From Anoxybacteroides tepidamans (GTDB taxonomy: Bacteria > Bacillota > Bacilli > Bacillales > Anoxybacillaceae): 44,791 bases of DNA. The position numbers were made by a program, and so were the translations under genes. Shown here piece after piece: positions 1 to 5,050 of the stretch. Under the pieces are notes generated by a model, which saw nothing but the letters and a program-made list of their open reading frames with translations, was not told where the DNA came from and searched no databases. Every line of letters begins with the position of its first letter. Positions within the stretch are counted from its first letter, which is position 1. Location: positions 1 to 44,791 of the forward strand of contig NZ_JACHEP010000025.1 of assembly GCF_014201465.1 (NCBI RefSeq). Direction: 5' to 3'.

Positions 1-95
<95 letters not shown>

Positions 96-115
96 TGTAT
101 ATAAATACAAAATAT

Positions 116-131
116 TCCGCAATAGCTCAGC
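116..131 (+). pseudogene. Truncated 5' end of tRNA-Asn
   Basis: These 16 bases equal the first 16 bases of the intact tRNA-Asn at 273-347. The identity extends over 21 bp (112-132 versus 269-289), including upstream sequence. The copy stops inside the D-loop and is followed directly by a structured insertion (132-213) rather than the rest of the tRNA. It cannot give a functional tRNA. It looks like a partial duplication created when the insertion arrived. Confidence 0.8.
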
Positions 132-213
132 GACGAGCGAAACATCGGTGAATCTGCTACGAGTTGCCTCGACGCAGCCATCATCCTCGAATCGTCTCGA
201 AGAGGAAGAGGCA
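132..213 (+). other. Structured insertion in tRNA array, copy 1 (possible ncRNA or mobile RNA)
   Basis: About 82 bases that share with 644-723 a first block of 45 bases (GACGAGCGA, 15 variable bases, then GCTACGAGTTGCCTCGACGCA in two runs) and a last block AGAGGAAGAGGCA. Between them lies a variable segment of 24 bases here and 22 in the other copy. TGCCTC in the first block can pair with GAGGCA in the last, closing a stem around the variable segment. AGC/GCT flank the variable 15 bases. GAGC in the first block can also pair with GCTC of the truncated tRNA to make a D-arm-like stem. I do not recognise it as a known RNA family. Confidence 0.6.
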
Positions 214-272
214 GTAGAAATAAGAAAGGAAAACGATGTTGCAATTTAGTAATTATGTTTTCTAACATATAT

Positions 273-347
273 TCCGCAATAGCTCAGCGGTAGAGCAACC
301 GGCTGTTAACCGGTAGGTCGTAGGTTCGAATCCTACTTGCGGAGCCA
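273..347 (+). tRNA. tRNA-Asn (GUU)
   Basis: Acceptor arms TCCGCAA and TTGCGGA pair. The anticodon loop carries GTT between GGCT and ACCGG-type stem strands, the TTCGAAT T-loop is intact and CCA is encoded. This is the first tRNA after 5S, the usual place for Asn in Bacillaceae rRNA operons. Confidence 0.97.
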
Positions 348-348
348 T

Positions 349-421
349 GCTTCCATAGCTCAGTAGGTAGAGCACTTCCATGGTAAGGAAGAGGTCACCG
401 GTTCAAGCCCGGTTGGAAGCT
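349..421 (+). tRNA. tRNA-Thr (GGU)
   Basis: Acceptor arms GCTTCCA/TGGAAGC, anticodon stem CTTCC/GGAAG with loop ATGGTAA (anticodon GGT), D-arm GCTC...GAGC and T-loop TTCAAGC. CCA is not encoded. It lies 1 base after tRNA-Asn. Confidence 0.97.
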
Positions 422-442
422 TGTATTTATTATTATTTTTTT

Positions 443-514
443 GGCCCGTTGGTCAAGTGGTTAAGACACCGCCCTTTCACGGCGGTAACACGGGTTCGAA
501 TCCCGTACGGGTCA
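443..514 (+). tRNA. tRNA-Glu (UUC)
   Basis: Acceptor GGCCCGT pairs with ACGGGTC (one G-U pair). Anticodon stem ACCGCC/GGCGGT holds loop CTTTCAC (anticodon TTC), and the T-loop is TTCGAAT. CCA is not encoded. Confidence 0.97.
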
Positions 515-528
515 CTTTCTTTTTGTTT

Positions 529-604
529 GGAGGATTAGCTCAGCTGGGAGAGCACTTGCCTTACAAGCAAGGGGTCGGCGGTTCGATCCCGTCATCCTCC
601 ACCA
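529..604 (+). tRNA. tRNA-Val (UAC)
   Basis: Acceptor GGAGGAT/ATCCTCC, anticodon stem CTTGC/GCAAG with loop CTTACAA (anticodon TAC), T-loop TTCGATC, encoded CCA. It ends 15 bases before a degenerate tRNA fragment. Confidence 0.97.
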
Positions 605-619
605 TATAGTAGATCGCAG

Positions 620-644
620 GACCAGCTTAGCTCAATTGATAGAG
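620..644 (+). pseudogene. Truncated 5' end of tRNA-Thr
   Basis: Matches the first ~24 bases of tRNA-Thr(UGU) at 862 with about two differences (CCAGCTT for CCGGCTT, TTGAT for TTGGT). It stops after the D-arm and runs straight into the second structured insertion at 644. The arrangement is the same as at 116-131, but a different tRNA is copied and the fragment has begun to diverge. Confidence 0.75.
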
Positions 645-723
645 ACGAGCGAGGCTTCTATGAATAAGCTACGAGTTGCCTCGACGCATAGTATATTGGA
701 ATATGCTGGTAGAGGAAGAGGCA
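644..723 (+). other. Structured insertion in tRNA array, copy 2
   Basis: Second copy of the element at 132-213. The 45-base first block has the same length and differs only inside its 15-base variable part. The last block AGAGGAAGAGGCA is identical. Its variable middle is an independent hairpin (GCATA...TATGC), so the sequence changes while a stem may be kept. About 138 further bases (724-861) precede the intact tRNA-Thr. They contain CTACA/TGTAG and a direct repeat AGCATACTG. That tail is not clearly shared with copy 1. Confidence 0.6.
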
Positions 724-861
724 CAACACGGCCGAATACGCTACAGTGAGTGTAGTTTTAGTTAGCATACTGCTCGAGCTGCTGCTTGGTAAAGCATACT
801 GAGGGCGAGACGACGATAATTAAGAAATGATTTATAAAGCAATGTTTTAAAATTTTATTAA

Positions 862-937
<76 letters not shown>

Positions 938-946
938 TCCTCTTGT

Positions 947-1031
947 GGAGGGGTAGCGAAGTGGCCAAACGCGGCGGACTGTAAATCCGCTCCCTGTGGG
1001 TTCGGCGGTTCGAATCCGTCCCCCTCCACCA
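947..1031 (+). tRNA. tRNA-Tyr (GUA)
   Basis: An 85-base class II tRNA with a long variable arm. Acceptor GGAGGGG pairs with CCCCTCC, anticodon stem GCGGA/TCCGC encloses CTGTAAA (anticodon GTA), and CCA is encoded. Confidence 0.97.
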
Positions 1032-1059
1032 TTTATACATAATATAATAAAACAACGAC

Positions 1060-1098
1060 GTTATTTCACTGTTTGTATCTTGAAATAACTTTTTTATT
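1060..1098 (+). terminator. Intrinsic terminator inside the tRNA array
   Basis: A 9-bp perfect stem GTTATTTCA/TGAAATAAC is followed by a run of T residues. It would end transcripts after tRNA-Tyr, so the four tRNAs further downstream may depend on read-through or their own promoter. Confidence 0.8.
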
Positions 1099-1430
1099 TG
1101 TCTTTTGGCCGTATGATTTGTTGTTTATGTGGGATAATAACGCTTGGGATTATTAAGATTTCGTGGATTTTCTACAGAAATCGCCAAAATAATTTCTGCG
1201 GTGTTGATTATACAAAGCGTTTCATTATGTTTTTAAATCGTAATATCAATGTCGGAACATTTCCCGAATTTCCTAATAGACACTCAAGAAATGTTCCTTA
1301 AGTGATTTGCGAATTTAGTCATTGTCGACGATATTTCGCAAAATTTCTGAAGGAAATTTTTCAAAATATCGTTTTGCGTTGCTAGTTCGTGAAGTTAATT
1401 CTATGATGTTAATTCATGAAGTTGTATCAG
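1099..1430 (+). other. Non-coding stretch with three inverted repeats
   Basis: No convincing gene is present. Three inverted repeats occur in about 330 bases: CAGAAAT/ATTTCTG (1175-1198), GGAACATTTC/GAAATGTTCC (1254-1297) and ACGATATTT/AAATATCGT (1328-1372), the last enclosing AAATTTC/GAAATTT. A 67-codon open frame here has no ribosome binding site and no recognisable sequence. It may be a structured RNA, the leader of the second tRNA block, or remains of an insertion. Confidence 0.5.
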
Positions 1431-1505
1431 TGGGCTATAGCCAAGCGGTAAGGCAACGGACTTTGACTCCGTGATGCGCTGGTTCGAATCCAGCTAGCCC
1501 AGCCA
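1431..1505 (+). tRNA. tRNA-Gln (UUG)
   Basis: Acceptor TGGGCTA/TAGCCCA, anticodon stem ACGGA/TCCGT with loop CTTTGAC (anticodon TTG), T-loop TTCGAAT, encoded CCA. Confidence 0.97.
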
Positions 1506-1519
1506 TTAACATATATTAC

Positions 1520-1592
1520 GAGCCATTAGCTCAGTAGGTAGAGCATCTGACTTTTAATCAGAGGGTCGGAGGTTCGAGTCCTCCATGGCTCA
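1520..1592 (+). tRNA. tRNA-Lys (UUU)
   Basis: Acceptor GAGCCAT/ATGGCTC, anticodon stem CTGA/TCAG with loop CTTTTAA (anticodon TTT), T-loop TTCGAGT. CCA is not encoded. Confidence 0.97.
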
Positions 1593-1598
1593 CTTGAT

Positions 1599-1670
1599 GC
1601 GGAAGTAGTTCAGTGGTAGAACACCACCTTGCCAAGGTGGGGGTCGCGGGTTCGAGTCCCGTCTTCCGCT
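1599..1670 (+). tRNA. tRNA-Gly (GCC)
   Basis: Acceptor GCGGAAG/CTTCCGC, anticodon stem CCACC/GGTGG with loop TTGCCAA (anticodon GCC), T-loop TTCGAGT. CCA is not encoded. Confidence 0.97.
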
Positions 1671-1685
1671 TCATTAACATATTGA

Positions 1686-1758
1686 GGGGCCTTAGCTCAG
1701 CTGGGAGAGCGCCTGCTTTGCACGCAGGAGGTCATCGGTTCGATCCCGATAGGCTCCA
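1686..1758 (+). tRNA. tRNA-Ala (UGC)
   Basis: Acceptor GGGGCCT pairs with AGGCTCC (one G-U), anticodon stem CCTGC/GCAGG with loop TTTGCAC (anticodon TGC), T-loop TTCGATC. CCA is not encoded. It is the last tRNA before the array terminator. Confidence 0.97.
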
Positions 1759-1760
1759 TA

Positions 1761-1800
1761 AAAAACCCCTTAAATCCTGTGGATTTAAGGGGTTTTTTAT
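1761..1800 (+). terminator. Terminator of the rRNA/tRNA transcription unit
   Basis: A long near-perfect stem (AAACCCCTTAAATCC with GGATTTAAGGGGTTT) with a 3-base loop, followed by a T run, sits directly after tRNA-Ala. Confidence 0.95.
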
Positions 1801-1840
1801 GCATATTTGCAATCGAATAAATATTCAAAAAAGTGTCGAG

Positions 1841-1870
1841 TTGAGTCAATGTTCGATGATTCGATACAAT
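1841..1870 (+). promoter_or_regulatory. Probable sigma-A promoter of rocF
   Basis: TTGAGT, an 18-base spacer and TACAAT lie 30 bases upstream of the rocF start. It is the only good match between the tRNA terminator and the gene. No RocR/SigL (-24/-12) type promoter is evident. Confidence 0.6.
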
Positions 1871-1900
1871 ATAGGCAGTGTAAGGGGAAGGAGAGACATC

Positions 1901-2803
1901 ATGAAAAAAATATCGATTATTGGTGTTCCAATGGATTTAGGTCAAACACGACGCGGTGTCGATATGGGCCCAAGTGCGATTCGCTACGCGGGAGTTGTCG
2001 AGAGATTGGAGTGCCTCAATTATGAAATTGAGGATTTAGGTGATATTGCGATCGGAAAAGCAGAACGAGTCGACGATGAAGGAGAGCGATTGAACTTACG
2101 TAATTTGAAAGCCGTTGCTGAGGCGAACGAGAAATTGGCTCAGACGGTAGACGAAGTGATTCAAAAAGGAAATTTCCCGCTCGTATTAGGCGGCGATCAT
2201 AGTATTGCGATCGGTACGTTAGCGGGTGTAGCTAAACATTATAAAAACCTTGGCGTCATTTGGTATGATGCCCATGGAGATTTAAATACAGCGGAAACGT
2301 CCCCATCAGGAAATATTCACGGTATGCCTCTAGCCGCTAGCCTTGGATTAGGCCATCCAGCGCTGACGCAAATTGGCGGGTACAGCCCGAAAGTAAAGCC
2401 GGAAAACATTGTGTTAATCGGGGCGCGAGCGCTTGATGAAGGCGAAAAACGGTTGATTCGTGAAAAAGGAATTAAAGTGTACACGATGCACGAAATCGAT
2501 CGCCTCGGTATGACAAAAGTGATCGAAGAAACGATTGCTTATTTAAAAGAGCGTACCGATGGCGTACATTTGTCATTAGATTTAGATGGCCTTGATCCTC
2601 ACGATGCTCCTGGGGTAGGGACGCCGGTCATTGGCGGGCTTACATATCGGGAAAGCCATTTAGCGATGGAAATGTTGGCAGAGGCTCAGCTCATTACATC
2701 TGCGGAATTTGTGGAAGTCAATCCGATTTTAGATGAACGAAATAAAACAGCTTCTGTTGCAGTGGCGTTGATGGGTTCGCTTTTTGGCGAAAAATTAGTA
2801 TAA
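1901..2803 (+). CDS. rocF: Arginase
   Basis: Hydrolyses arginine to ornithine and urea in the cytoplasm, the first step of arginine catabolism. The 300-residue protein matches bacterial arginases (B. subtilis RocF is about 296). The binuclear manganese ligands are visible: GGDHS (97-101), DAHGD (123-127) and SLDLDGLDP (225-233); EVNP near 272 is also conserved. The open frame extends upstream through tRNA sequence, but the start is set at ATG 1901 behind AAGGGGAAGGAG. It stands alone with its own promoter and terminator, next to sigW rather than with other roc genes. Confidence 0.96.
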   Translation: MKKISIIGVPMDLGQTRRGVDMGPSAIRYAGVVERLECLNYEIEDLGDIAIGKAERVDDEGERLNLRNLKAVAEANEKLAQTVDEVIQKGNFPLVLGGDHSIAIGTLAGVAKHYKNLGVIWYDAHGDLNTAETSPSGNIHGMPLAASLGLGHPALTQIGGYSPKVKPENIVLIGARALDEGEKRLIREKGIKVYTMHEIDRLGMTKVIEETIAYLKERTDGVHLSLDLDGLDPHDAPGVGTPVIGGLTYRESHLAMEMLAEAQLITSAEFVEVNPILDERNKTASVAVALMGSLFGEKLV

Positions 2804-2811
2804 CATTTTGT

Positions 2812-2847
2812 ACAGCAGGCGAAAAAAAATCTGTCTGCTGTTTTTTT
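2812..2847 (+). terminator. Terminator of rocF
   Basis: Stem ACAGCAG/CTGCTGT followed by seven T residues, just after the rocF stop codon. Confidence 0.85.
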
Positions 2848-2883
2848 CTGTAAATATGTTAAAATAAATAGTGCGTCGAGAAG

Positions 2884-2910
2884 CGAAACTTTTTTTTGCT
2901 TCAAAACGTA
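2884..2910 (+). promoter_or_regulatory. Sigma-W autoregulatory promoter
   Basis: GAAAC (2885-2889) and CGTA (2907-2910), 17 bases apart and with a T-rich spacer, match the ECF sigma-W consensus (TGAAAC, about 16, CGTA). They precede sigW itself, as in B. subtilis where sigW-rsiW is transcribed from a SigW promoter. Confidence 0.8.
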
Positions 2911-2948
2911 TACAATAATAACCGCAATGAGCGGGGGTATTATGAATT

Positions 2949-3512
2949 ATGGACATGTTTGTGAAAAAGCGAATTAAAGCGATTCAAAAAGGAGATCAAA
3001 ATGCGTATGCCGAAATTGTCGAGCTTTATAAAGATAAGGTATATCGGTTATGTTATCGAATGCTCGGAAATCGGCATGAGGCAGAAGATGCGGCCCAAGA
3101 AGCTTTTATTCGAGCGTATGTAAACATTGATACGTATAACCCAACGATGAAATTTTCTTCGTGGCTTTATCGGATTGCAACGAATTTATCGATTGATAAA
3201 CTGCGCAAAAAAAAGCCGGACGTTTATTTGGACGAGGAAGTAAGAGGGACAGAAGGATTAACAGTGTATTCCCAACTTCCTGCAAAAGAAGCTTCTCCCG
3301 AAGATACAGTAGAAAGTTTAGAGTTACAGGAAACGGTTCAACAAGCGATTGAAAAGCTTCCGGAAAAATACCGAAGTGTGATTGTGCTAAAATATATCGA
3401 GGATTTATCATTGCAGGAAATTAGTGAAATCCTTGATTTGCCGATCGGGACCGTCAAAACGAGAATTCATCGTGGAAGAGAGGCATTAAGAAAGCATTTG
3501 GGACATTTATGA
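2949..3512 (+). CDS. sigW: ECF RNA polymerase sigma factor SigW
   Basis: Directs RNA polymerase to genes for resistance to cell-envelope stress and membrane-active compounds. The 187 residues contain sigma region 2 (about 20-90, with YRMLGNRHEAEDAAQEAF for -10 recognition) and region 4 (about 130-182, helix-turn-helix with LSLQEISEILDLPIGTVKTR). The N-terminus MDMFVKKRIK aligns with B. subtilis SigW, supporting ATG 2949. It is followed 13 bases later by its anti-sigma gene, forming a two-gene operon under a SigW-type promoter. Confidence 0.96.
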   Translation: MDMFVKKRIKAIQKGDQNAYAEIVELYKDKVYRLCYRMLGNRHEAEDAAQEAFIRAYVNIDTYNPTMKFSSWLYRIATNLSIDKLRKKKPDVYLDEEVRGTEGLTVYSQLPAKEASPEDTVESLELQETVQQAIEKLPEKYRSVIVLKYIEDLSLQEISEILDLPIGTVKTRIHRGREALRKHLGHL

Positions 3513-3525
3513 GAGGTGAAAACGA

Positions 3526-4128
3526 ATGAAATGTCCGGATAAGATCATCGAATGGATGCACGATTACTTAGATGGCGATATTGTTCCTGATCATGAGAAG
3601 GCGTTACGGGAACATTTGCAGCATTGCCCGGAGTGTTCTCATCATTTTAATAGTTTAAAAAAGACAGTGGCGTTTATTCAACATGCTTCCCATCTTGCCC
3701 CGCCTTCCGATTTTACGAAGAATGTGATGGCCAAACTGCCAAAAGAAAAGAAACGGGTTCGTATCGGAAGGTGGTTGAAAAATCATCCGTTTATCACAGC
3801 TGCTTCTTTATTTGTTGCTTTAACGGTTGGCAGCCTTTTTACGACGTGGAATCAAGGACAGCAGTTTTCTGTTTCGACGCGGGAAAATGTCGTCATTCAA
3901 GGTCATACCGTCATTGTTCCAAAGGGAAAAACAGTAGATGGCGACATTGTGGTACGTAACGGAACGATTAAAATTGAAGGAAAAGTGAATGGAAATGTCA
4001 CCGTGATTCACGGGGAAAAATATTTAGCTTCCGCCGGACAAGTAACTGGAGAAGTGGAAGAAATTAATGAGGTATTCGATTGGGTTTGGTATAATATAAA
4101 AAGTGTAGTGAAAGATTTGTTTGAATGA
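3526..4128 (+). CDS. rsiW: Anti-sigma-W factor RsiW
   Basis: Membrane-anchored inhibitor that holds SigW inactive until it is cut in turn by regulated proteases. The 200-residue protein begins with a zinc-associated anti-sigma domain carrying H-x3-C-x2-C (H30, C34, C37). One membrane segment follows at about 88-106 and then an extracytoplasmic domain. Length and architecture fit RsiW (208 in B. subtilis). GAGAGGTGAAAACG serves as ribosome binding site. Pairing with sigW makes the assignment secure. Confidence 0.93.
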   Translation: MKCPDKIIEWMHDYLDGDIVPDHEKALREHLQHCPECSHHFNSLKKTVAFIQHASHLAPPSDFTKNVMAKLPKEKKRVRIGRWLKNHPFITAASLFVALTVGSLFTTWNQGQQFSVSTRENVVIQGHTVIVPKGKTVDGDIVVRNGTIKIEGKVNGNVTVIHGEKYLASAGQVTGEVEEINEVFDWVWYNIKSVVKDLFE

Positions 4129-4129
4129 A

Positions 4130-4157
4130 AGGCCGTCTCTTTTGGCGGCTCTTTTTC
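4130..4157 (+). terminator. Terminator of sigW-rsiW
   Basis: Short GC stem (GCCG/CGGC, extended by weaker pairs) followed by CTTTTTCT, immediately after rsiW. Confidence 0.7.
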
Positions 4158-4228
4158 TGTATGTGATATAATAAAAGAGCTGCGTAAATAAAATATAGCG
4201 GAATCAGAATAATAAAGGAAGTGTGAGA

Positions 4229-5050
4229 ATGCCTTTTGGAGAGCTCCCGGTGTTGAGTTATATAACGAAAGTCGTCGATATTCTTCTTGTTTGGTACGTC
4301 ATTTATAAGTTAATTATGGTGATTCGCGGAACGAAAGCGGTCCAGCTTTTAAAAGGAATCATTCTCATTATATTGGTGCGGATTGTCAGTAATTTTTTAG
4401 GTCTTAGCACGCTGCAGTGGTTAATGGACCAAGCGTTAACGTGGGGATTTTTAGCCATTATTATTATTTTCCAACCGGAGTTAAGGCGGGCGCTTGAGCA
4501 ACTAGGGAGGGGAAAGCTATTTTCAAGAAGCACTGTTCCGGAAGAAGAAGAGCGAGCGCAAATGGTGGAAGCGATTATTAAGGCGACGGAATATATGGCG
4601 AAACGGCGCATTGGCGCTCTTATATCGGTGGAACGCGAAACGGGCATGGGTGATTATATTGAAACGGGAATTCTTCTTAACGCTCAGATTTCATCGGAAT
4701 TATTAATTAATATTTTTATCCCGAATACGCCGTTGCACGACGGGGCGGTCATTATTCAGAAAAATCATGTGGCCGCAGCCGGCTGCTATTTACCGTTATC
4801 CGAAAGCCCGTTTATTTCAAAAGAATTAGGGACGCGCCACCGTGCTGCATTAGGGATCAGCGAAGTGACCGATAGCGTGACGGTTGTAGTATCGGAAGAA
4901 ACGGGTGCTGTATCAGTGACAAAAAACGGGGAGATGCATCGAGATTTAACTCCGGAGCAATTTCGCGAATTGCTCATGAAGGAGTTAATACCGGCAACGA
5001 AGACAACTTCCTCATCCCGTTGGCAATGGAGGGGGAAGAAACATGGATAA
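4229..5050 (+). CDS. cdaA: Diadenylate cyclase CdaA (c-di-AMP synthase)
   Basis: Condenses two ATP into cyclic di-AMP, the second messenger for potassium and osmotic balance in Firmicutes. The 273 residues have three membrane helices (about 13-30, 39-57, 66-81) followed by a DAC domain with DGA (171-173) and RHR (203-205) nucleotide-binding motifs. Start: a GTG at 4223 is in frame, but ATG 4229 has better spacing from AAAGGAAGTG and gives the same length as B. subtilis CdaA. cdaR overlaps its 3' end by 8 bases, and glmM follows, the conserved cdaA-cdaR-glmM order. Confidence 0.96.
   Translation: MPFGELPVLSYITKVVDILLVWYVIYKLIMVIRGTKAVQLLKGIILIILVRIVSNFLGLSTLQWLMDQALTWGFLAIIIIFQPELRRALEQLGRGKLFSRSTVPEEEERAQMVEAIIKATEYMAKRRIGALISVERETGMGDYIETGILLNAQISSELLINIFIPNTPLHDGAVIIQKNHVAAAGCYLPLSESPFISKELGTRHRAALGISEVTDSVTVVVSEETGAVSVTKNGEMHRDLTPEQFRELLMKELIPATKTTSSSRWQWRGKKHG

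Follow-up and report, generated by a model that had tools for sequence, protein, structure and literature searches.

Introduction

The rtT RNA of the E. coli tyrT operon consists of repeated non-tRNA RNA units located behind the tRNA of that one operon, and the tRNA portion found within them is a copy of its 3' end. The REP/BIME, ERIC and NEMIS elements are small structured interspersed repeats, and Bacillaceae-1 RNA is sometimes encountered near rRNA operons. A cluster of rtT-resembling elements belongs to the BIME repeats according to PMC2965389. Partial tRNAs lying beside integrated elements are described in both archaea and bacteria (PMC9897764), and tRNA-transcript spacers can have regulatory roles, RyhB being acted on in E. 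coli (PMC6191717).

Here we describe two elements, E1 and E2, which usually lie between a partial copy of a tRNA and an intact one. Their anatomy differs from that of rtT, of tRNA-transcript spacers, of REP/ERIC repeats and of integration fragments, and no architectural match was found. Nor did the titles and abstract beginnings listed in searches of the open-access literature, a scope outside which most subscription papers and preprints fall, yield a description of such an element. In contrast to rtT, E1 is accompanied by the 5' part of the tRNA, is placed upstream, occurs at nine kinds of tRNA in 82 sampled genera and has a different conserved core. With REP/BIME, ERIC and NEMIS it shares being short, structured, multi-copy and variable between relatives, but it keeps to tRNA genes and follows their orientation (338 of 339 copies, see below), has nearly invariant unpaired stretches and leaves an intact tRNA. 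A fixed short left-end target (AGNN) with no target duplication recalls IS200/IS605 or REP-type elements, yet in the single-contig genome G005 the E1 insertions are not spread over the genome. Like the tRNA fragments of integrative elements (PMC9897764), E1 loci hold a partial and an intact copy of one tRNA, but E1 cassettes have the 5' part, a conserved 80-nt core and a gap too short for an integrated element. Finally, T-box leaders are likewise structured leader RNAs of Bacillales tied to a particular tRNA; E1 leaders, in contrast, contain tRNA sequence and precede tRNA genes, and those of the locus analysed have no terminator-like site. Judging from sequence comparison, we tentatively favour the reading, which is quite possibly correct, that E1 and E2 are structured leader RNAs of tRNA genes in this bacterial order, forming a removable cassette in front of an intact tRNA.

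Two leaders in an rRNA-linked tRNA array

The window, by which we mean the whole stretch of 44,791 nucleotides analysed, opens inside a 5S rRNA gene, after which ten intact tRNAs are found by ARAGORN and Rfam. As Table 1 shows, the tRNA-Asn and tRNA-Thr genes are each preceded by a partial copy of themselves and an E1 element. The original prediction had placed two elements here, each behind a truncated tRNA 5' end with an intact copy of the same tRNA downstream; this is borne out, the intact tRNAs being placed by ARAGORN and Rfam and the element borders refined to 133-213 and 645-723. The 13-base 3' end, AGAGGAAGAGGCA, is indeed identical in the two copies. The 45-base first block also thought to be common to them can be aligned but is not identical, identity across the aligned element being 75% (BLAST). 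Two features went beyond that prediction, namely E2 at 727-812 and the continuation of the interrupted tRNA after E1 (GTAG in the Asn leader and CAAC in the Thr leader), which makes the insertion a clean one. A simple scan of positions 90-1100 found no terminator-like site (shuffles, mean 1.0).

Table 1. Features of the Asn and Thr leaders in the window
Feature	Position	Strand	Basis or remark
5S rRNA 3' part	1..95	+	Rfam RF00001, 67.3 bits; cut at window edge; Asn leader next
tRNA-Asn 5' copy, first 17 nt (acceptor 5' strand to D-loop)	116..132	+	17/17 identical to 273-289
E1, Asn leader	133..213	+	model R1, 88.1 bits at 129-213
E1 3' hairpin, Asn leader	165..213	+	covarying stem TGCCTC (165-170) / GAGGCA (208-213)
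Asn-leader linker, 59 nt	214..272	+	begins GTAG like rest of tRNA-Asn, unrelated thereafter
intact tRNA-Asn(GUU)	273..347 (Rfam 273-344)	+	ARAGORN; Rfam 76 bits
tRNA-Thr 5' copy, first 24 nt	621..644	+	21/24 identical to 862-885
E1, Thr leader	645..723	+	model R1, 87.8 bits at 641-723
tRNA remnant CAAC after Thr-leader E1	724-727	+	continues interrupted tRNA-Thr
E2, Thr leader, right after CAAC remnant	727..812	+	HMM, E 4e-12
linker between E2 and tRNA-Thr	813..861	+	sequence read directly
intact tRNA-Thr(UGU)	862..937 (Rfam 862-934)	+	ARAGORN; Rfam 76.7 bits

Both E1 copies of the window are among the 57 from which covariance model R1 was built and their R1 scores are therefore high by construction; independent support comes from the 39 other genomes of the family that match R1. 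The E2 HMM was made from 11 E2 copies, none taken from the window. That the E1 pair is not a product of chance follows from the presence of an exact core 21-mer in 29 stretches of named genome records and from R1 matches in at least 180 of 397 genomes of the order.

Comparison with known RNA families

Rfam 15 gave no match over E1 or E2 in positions 1-5000 of the window at E-values up to 1. With the limit relaxed to E 10 for five array loci, the only matches overlapping element copies were sub-threshold: YrlA matches anchored on the neighbouring tRNAs, and adapt33_3 (E 2.8) over the E2 of L029. The earlier remark that no known family came to mind holds at the Rfam threshold. In the same regions (window 1-5000 and the five array loci) there was no ribozyme or intron match over E1 and none to the T-box (RF00230), whose motifs had already been noted as absent; a true T-box was found by the same search elsewhere in L022. 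Nor was rtT among the Rfam matches in these regions, in a library that may lack an rtT model.

Three further candidates were rejected. Bacillaceae-1 (RF01690), like E1 an RNA of Bacillaceae, gave nothing above its cut-off when searched against the window's genome, and its three weak matches are on contigs without BLAST-found E1 copies. Mimicry of RNase P RNA was suggested by GUAGAGGAA-G, shared with the genome's own rnpB, but the local alignment score of 22 lies below the shuffle mean of 23.0 and is reached by 182 of 300 shuffles. Similarly, for CAACGAGCG, shared with 16S rRNA, the score is 24 against a shuffle mean of 25.9, with 152 of 200 shuffles reaching 24.

Distribution of E1

E1 is about 80 nt long, begins with ACGAGC and ends mostly with GRGRCA. 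The covariance-model search of relatives that had been suggested with the original prediction retrieved many further copies next to tRNA 5' parts. Of 41 genomes in the window's family, 40 have R1 matches (between 1 and 50 each), and R1 is also matched in at least 180 of 397 genomes of an order sample, covering 82 of 135 genera; the remaining 217 genomes have no match under strict filters that miss some copies. In a sample of the whole class at least 15 of 398 genomes match, all 15 of them in the window's order; both the order and class counts are lower bounds, no more than 11 candidates having been scored in each genome. In the window's own genome BLAST shows more strong copies on four other contigs, and R1 gives 10 matches. 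The exact core 21-mer mentioned above nearly always adjoins a tRNA 5' part, and the records containing it are from Anoxybacillus, Geobacillus, Parageobacillus, Thermolongibacillus, Neobacillus, Pallidibacillus, Fredinandcohnia and others, the named carriers being Bacillales.

All eight matches in the single-contig genome G005 precede the same tRNA (L177-L180). One genus has matches in 16 of its 18 species, at 0-8 per genome. Decayed E1 copies exist, and two genomes of another genus contain four weak E1-related copies away from tRNA genes.

No match was found among 50,697 phage records with a single 101-base E1 query (blastn, E<=0.01). Two scans of viral contigs yielded eight loci with a core 17-mer, four in tRNA arrays and four without a tRNA at the match. 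Three plasmid records were matched by E1, with no annotated feature under the match. One of these, NZ_CP051163.1 (11.4 kb, called a plasmid of Geobacillus subterraneus), bears chromosomal-looking hisD, cmpA and SprT family genes besides E1 and may be a chromosomal piece. A contig labelled as a Bacteroidia MAG (L027) has an E1 stretch identical over its printed length to that of Anoxybacillus mongoliensis (L025), and is probably misbinned.

RNA structure

The 3' stem of E1, UGYYYC/GRRRCA, is paired in 99.1% of cells across 107 diverse copies. These make up alignment A3, comprising 107 of 112 representatives; left out were four mixed E1/E2 elements and one copy with a long insertion. All six pairs of the TGCCTC/GAGGCA stem, as drawn in the original prediction, show compensatory, two-sided changes. 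Its covariation score was reached by none of 500 shuffles, a control that ignores relatedness, and slid versions of the stem score far lower. A pair in the internal loop also covaries, C-G being replaced by A-U in six sequences. Across seven E1 pairs (749 cells) there are 16 G-U but only three A-C cells, which favours a structure in the sense transcript over one in the other strand. Several unpaired stretches are nearly invariant, as is the purine stretch AGAGGAAG.

An alternative 5' hairpin, CGAGC/GCU-n-CG, is weakly supported: 86.5% of its cells are paired, with 44 A-C against 13 G-U. When eight E1 sequences were folded singly, the result was not clearly better than for shuffles (z -1.2 to +1.0). 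GACGAGC had been proposed to rebuild a D-stem with the GCTC of the tRNA. Such a stem is possible at the Asn, Lys and Thr sites but is not general, since the copied D-arm has no GCTC in Gly, initiator Met or Asp, nor at one of the Phe sites, TAGC.

Insertion sites and tRNA remnants

E1 sits after AGNN within the tRNA copy, the 5' part of which is kept and the 3' part gone. Nine kinds of tRNA act as hosts, some with several sites, among them Asn (CAGCG or CAGTG), initiator Met (GAGCA), Thr (TAGAG), Asp (TAGCG), Lys (CAGTA, CAGCA, CAGTC or GAGCA), Phe (four sites) and Arg (three sites); elongator Met is also used. The site in Gly-UCC, CAGCC, belongs to the anticodon loop and is thus outside the D-arm. 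The notion of a recombining element that recognizes D-arms therefore survives in its first half, given the filled and empty sites described below, but not in its restriction to the D-arm.

In 125 leaders with linkers of 20-75 nt, bases 1-5 after E1 match the continuation of the tRNA in 78, 50, 42, 34 and 49% of cases, respectively, and beyond the fifth base agreement is about 30% or less. Longer continuations occur in single leaders of Thr (CAACTGAC), Lys (GGTAGAGC) and Phe (CAGTCGGTAGAGCA). That the tRNA resumes after E1 shows a clean insertion followed by later loss of the tRNA 3' part. The copied tRNA bases differ from the intact gene at 99 of 3459 positions in 192 copies picked for a good tRNA match, a figure which is low by selection.

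Since partial tRNA copies are known beside integrated elements (PMC9897764), E1 loci might be mistaken for what phages or islands leave behind after integrating at tRNA genes. This is hardly credible: the copy is of the 5' part, one 80-nt core recurs at nine kinds of tRNA, and for 192 of 275 copies the gap between E1 and the intact tRNA is just 22-62 nt, the longer gaps including tandem E1. The viral contigs also count against it, four of the eight loci being tRNA arrays and the other four having no tRNA at the match.

Some loci depart from the usual arrangement. At L182 (1930-2520, minus strand), E1-interrupted copies of initiator tRNA-Met and tRNA-Phe lie 3' of the intact genes, and two of these copies still have nearly complete 3' halves including CCA; this rare reversed order is perhaps recent. 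At L043 (1820-2165) a tRNA-Arg 5' part is followed by two E1 copies and then by a tRNA-Arg T-arm and 3' end about 300 nt away, a rearranged or giant interrupted tRNA. The linkers of many Lys leaders (e.g. L030) contain a GAGUGU motif, and a motif like GGGUACCGACGGACA is seen in linkers of Lys and some Phe leaders of one other genus (L183-L197).

Polarity and transcription signals

The tRNA part beside each E1 was assigned blind to its neighbours, and only tRNAs of the same strand were counted. Among 343 distinct E1 copies, distinct here meaning a distinct sequence with flanks such that tandem copies and those of related species are not independent, a tRNA part was recognized in 280 and unrecognized in 63. 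The same tRNA lies downstream in 275 of the 280, upstream only in two and in neither place in three, two of which are probably Lys leaders assigned to Ala. These counts leave out L001-L020, L054-L056, L160 and L161, as well as matches without 40 nt of left and 120 nt of right flank. As to orientation, the nearest tRNA within 700 nt is on the strand of E1 in 338 of 339 copies; four further copies have no tRNA. The single opposite-strand copy and the four tRNA-less ones are weak matches (E 2e-05 or worse), all five are among the 63 without a recognizable part, and two of them lie in an rRNA spacer.

The strongest clue is that a downstream tRNA of the same kind accompanies 275 of 280 copies. Insertion into either of two tRNA copies would put E1 on either side, so the order reflects either function or the mode of insertion. 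The tRNA part itself is not strictly needed, since E1 can stay conserved when that part has decayed, as in the 63 copies just mentioned.

Of the 45 leaders not linked to 5S rRNA, several lie behind another E1 and would need no promoter of their own; 19 have, upstream of the tRNA copy, a promoter-like site scoring at least 11.5 out of 12.5. None of 100 base shuffles per leader reached this score and the best score within linkers is 9.5. The -10 box is about 20 nt from the tRNA copy in one Arg leader and several of those for Asn, so that the copy seems to stand where the original tRNA once was.

Such promoter-like sites, along with tandem copies and the nearly invariant purine stretch, would also suit a family of trans-acting small RNAs, expressed from the tRNA promoter, given a 3' end by RNase P at the downstream tRNA and acting elsewhere as a sponge or protein decoy, with tandem copies raising the dosage. 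The RyhB case in E. coli (PMC6191717) offers a precedent. This alternative is nevertheless unlikely, as it leaves unexplained why the copied part is of the same kind as the tRNA downstream.

Alternatively, the upstream 5' part and the genuine one could be rivals for pairing with the 3' acceptor strand, with E1 biasing the outcome of this misfolding. Computed ensembles favour the upstream copy in 27 of 30 leaders, but they still do so in 26 of 30 when E1 and linker are shuffled, meaning that the preference does not come from E1 and making such a switch very improbable. The three parameter sets used gave identical values for the real sequences and evidently did not serve as independent tests.

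Conservation, gain and loss

In 16 Phe leaders of one genus, three of which sit at another Phe site, 33 of 80 columns of E1 are invariant compared with 2 of 45 in the linker; for eight Lys leaders of the same genus the figures are 44 of 80 and 7 of 31. The tRNAs behind the Phe and Lys leaders have 73 and 70 of 73 columns invariant, respectively. E1 was cut for these counts without requiring AGAGGAAG, and requiring it gave a nearly equal result. A core kept beside surroundings that have drifted is unlike a dead insertion.

Between related genomes the same array may have from zero to six E1 copies at a given tRNA, and six stand in tandem before one tRNA-Lys. The comparison proposed in the original prediction did reveal empty sites, filled and empty places being found at Ser-Thr, Phe-Thr, Ile-Asn, His-Gly, Asp-Phe and Val-Met. 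Ser-Thr is the one place compared base by base: in the empty genome (G025) tgcactttaaaatcgt is followed by the tRNA, and in the filled one (G027) the same 16 bases are followed by the tRNA copy, E1, linker and tRNA. The unit added at this place is thus E1, linker and tRNA 5' part, while neither the left spacer nor the tRNA is altered. A nearly identical Thr linker is found at the other Thr locus, as expected if homologous recombination copies the cassette from one locus of a tRNA to another. With 0 to 50 copies per genome and 217 of 397 order genomes without a match, E1 is evidently dispensable.

Within a genus, 99 of 121 E1 copies have their closest relative in another species at the same tRNA. 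In comparisons between genera it is at another tRNA of the same genome in 79 cases and at the same tRNA elsewhere in 35, with 15 ties; the same-tRNA share of 27% compares with a mean of 19% and a maximum of 22% in 20 label permutations. Copies are therefore stable within a genus but turn over between kinds of tRNA over longer times.

Possible roles

The upstream promoter, the kept structure, the same tRNA behind and the conserved core would fit a pre-tRNA leader RNA recognized by the host. The cassette would consist of a copy of the tRNA 5' part, E1 and/or E2, and a linker, directly before the intact tRNA, and would be transcribed within the pre-tRNA. Cleavage by RNase P at the tRNA 5' end would then free an RNA made of tRNA 5' part, E1 and linker, and a host factor recognizing E1 could affect how the tRNA behind it matures or folds, or how much of it is made. 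The cassette might be copied between loci of the same tRNA through homologous recombination, with the recipient's own tRNA 5' part as left arm; the near-perfect tRNA copy and the unbroken tRNA would follow from this. Moves to a new kind of tRNA would be rare clean insertions after AGNN. Tandem E1 copies are odd for a cis regulator and count against a leader function.

The main rival is a selfish, tRNA-dwelling structured element without host function, which would enter after AGNN, leave the tRNA intact and multiply by recombination and tandem duplication, the structure of its RNA or single-stranded DNA being kept because moving needs it. The two readings are not mutually exclusive. Dispensability, tandem copies and patchiness fit such a passenger, as do the empty places, the decayed copies and the single rule obeyed at nine kinds of tRNA, with as many as four sites in Phe. 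Copies of one genome resemble each other across kinds of tRNA (the 79 against 35 between genera), which fits spreading as well as function. On the other hand, the core is conserved beside drifted linkers in a genus with few matches per genome, copies stay at their own tRNA within a genus, phage records yielded no match to the one copy used as query, and neither an inverted repeat at the ends nor a target duplication is apparent by eye, nor was a carrier gene noticed. A purely selfish element is possible but on the doubtful side.

A further idea is that E1 and E2 would be RNA-level mobile elements, structured RNAs of about 80 nt that enter the D-arm to anticodon side of tRNA transcripts after AGNN in the sense orientation, are copied back into DNA and integrate beside the gene through the tRNA 5' part with the host tRNA regenerated, many resident copies now being leader RNAs with a role in tRNA maturation. 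We regard this as distinctly unlikely.

Should the preferred reading, that of leader RNAs, or that of a selfish element be true, nearly half of the sampled genomes of the order would carry an RNA family absent from Rfam 15, sitting inside rRNA-linked and other tRNA operons and representing either a new layer of control for individual tRNAs or a parasite living in tRNA genes without breaking them. Why only some tRNAs are used, what binds E1 and how tRNA gene sets change are then testable questions, as is the manner in which partial tRNA copies, readily taken for debris, are retained and copied. The family of tRNA-fused RNAs envisaged in the original prediction is supported in part, in that many copies adjoin tRNA 5' parts and the stem covaries.

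E2 and other E1-like sequences

E2 has the consensus CACGNYCGAAT...GGGRCG and, like E1, usually follows the AG of a tRNA copy, with the same tRNA behind it where the 60-nt flank shows this (e.g. L040, L070, L085, L029). Mixed elements with the first half of E1 and the second half of E2 are found at L026, L035, L152, L158 and L159. Given these and the same manner of insertion, E1 and E2 are taken to be two types of one family. Across the 17 copies of alignment A4 (of 18, the window's own E2 being left out) the E2 stem is 99.0% paired; three of its six pairs have changed on both sides and three never vary.

The 16S-23S spacer of G022 (L162, about 3500-3720) has reverse-oriented hairpins like the 3' module of E1, two as nhmmer matches (E 5e-06 and 1e-04) and further ones by eye. 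Two genomes of one genus contain an intergenic repeat of about 57 nt outside tRNA genes (L206-L209), in which the E1 5' module (ACGAGC...CNCGAGTTG) is joined to a different hairpin (CACCGAGTAATCGCAGGTG). This repeat has no Rfam match, and its exact 28-base pattern occurs in one of the 397 order-sample genomes. One of its stretches, L209, also includes a c-di-GMP-I riboswitch at 188-277 (81.4 bits).
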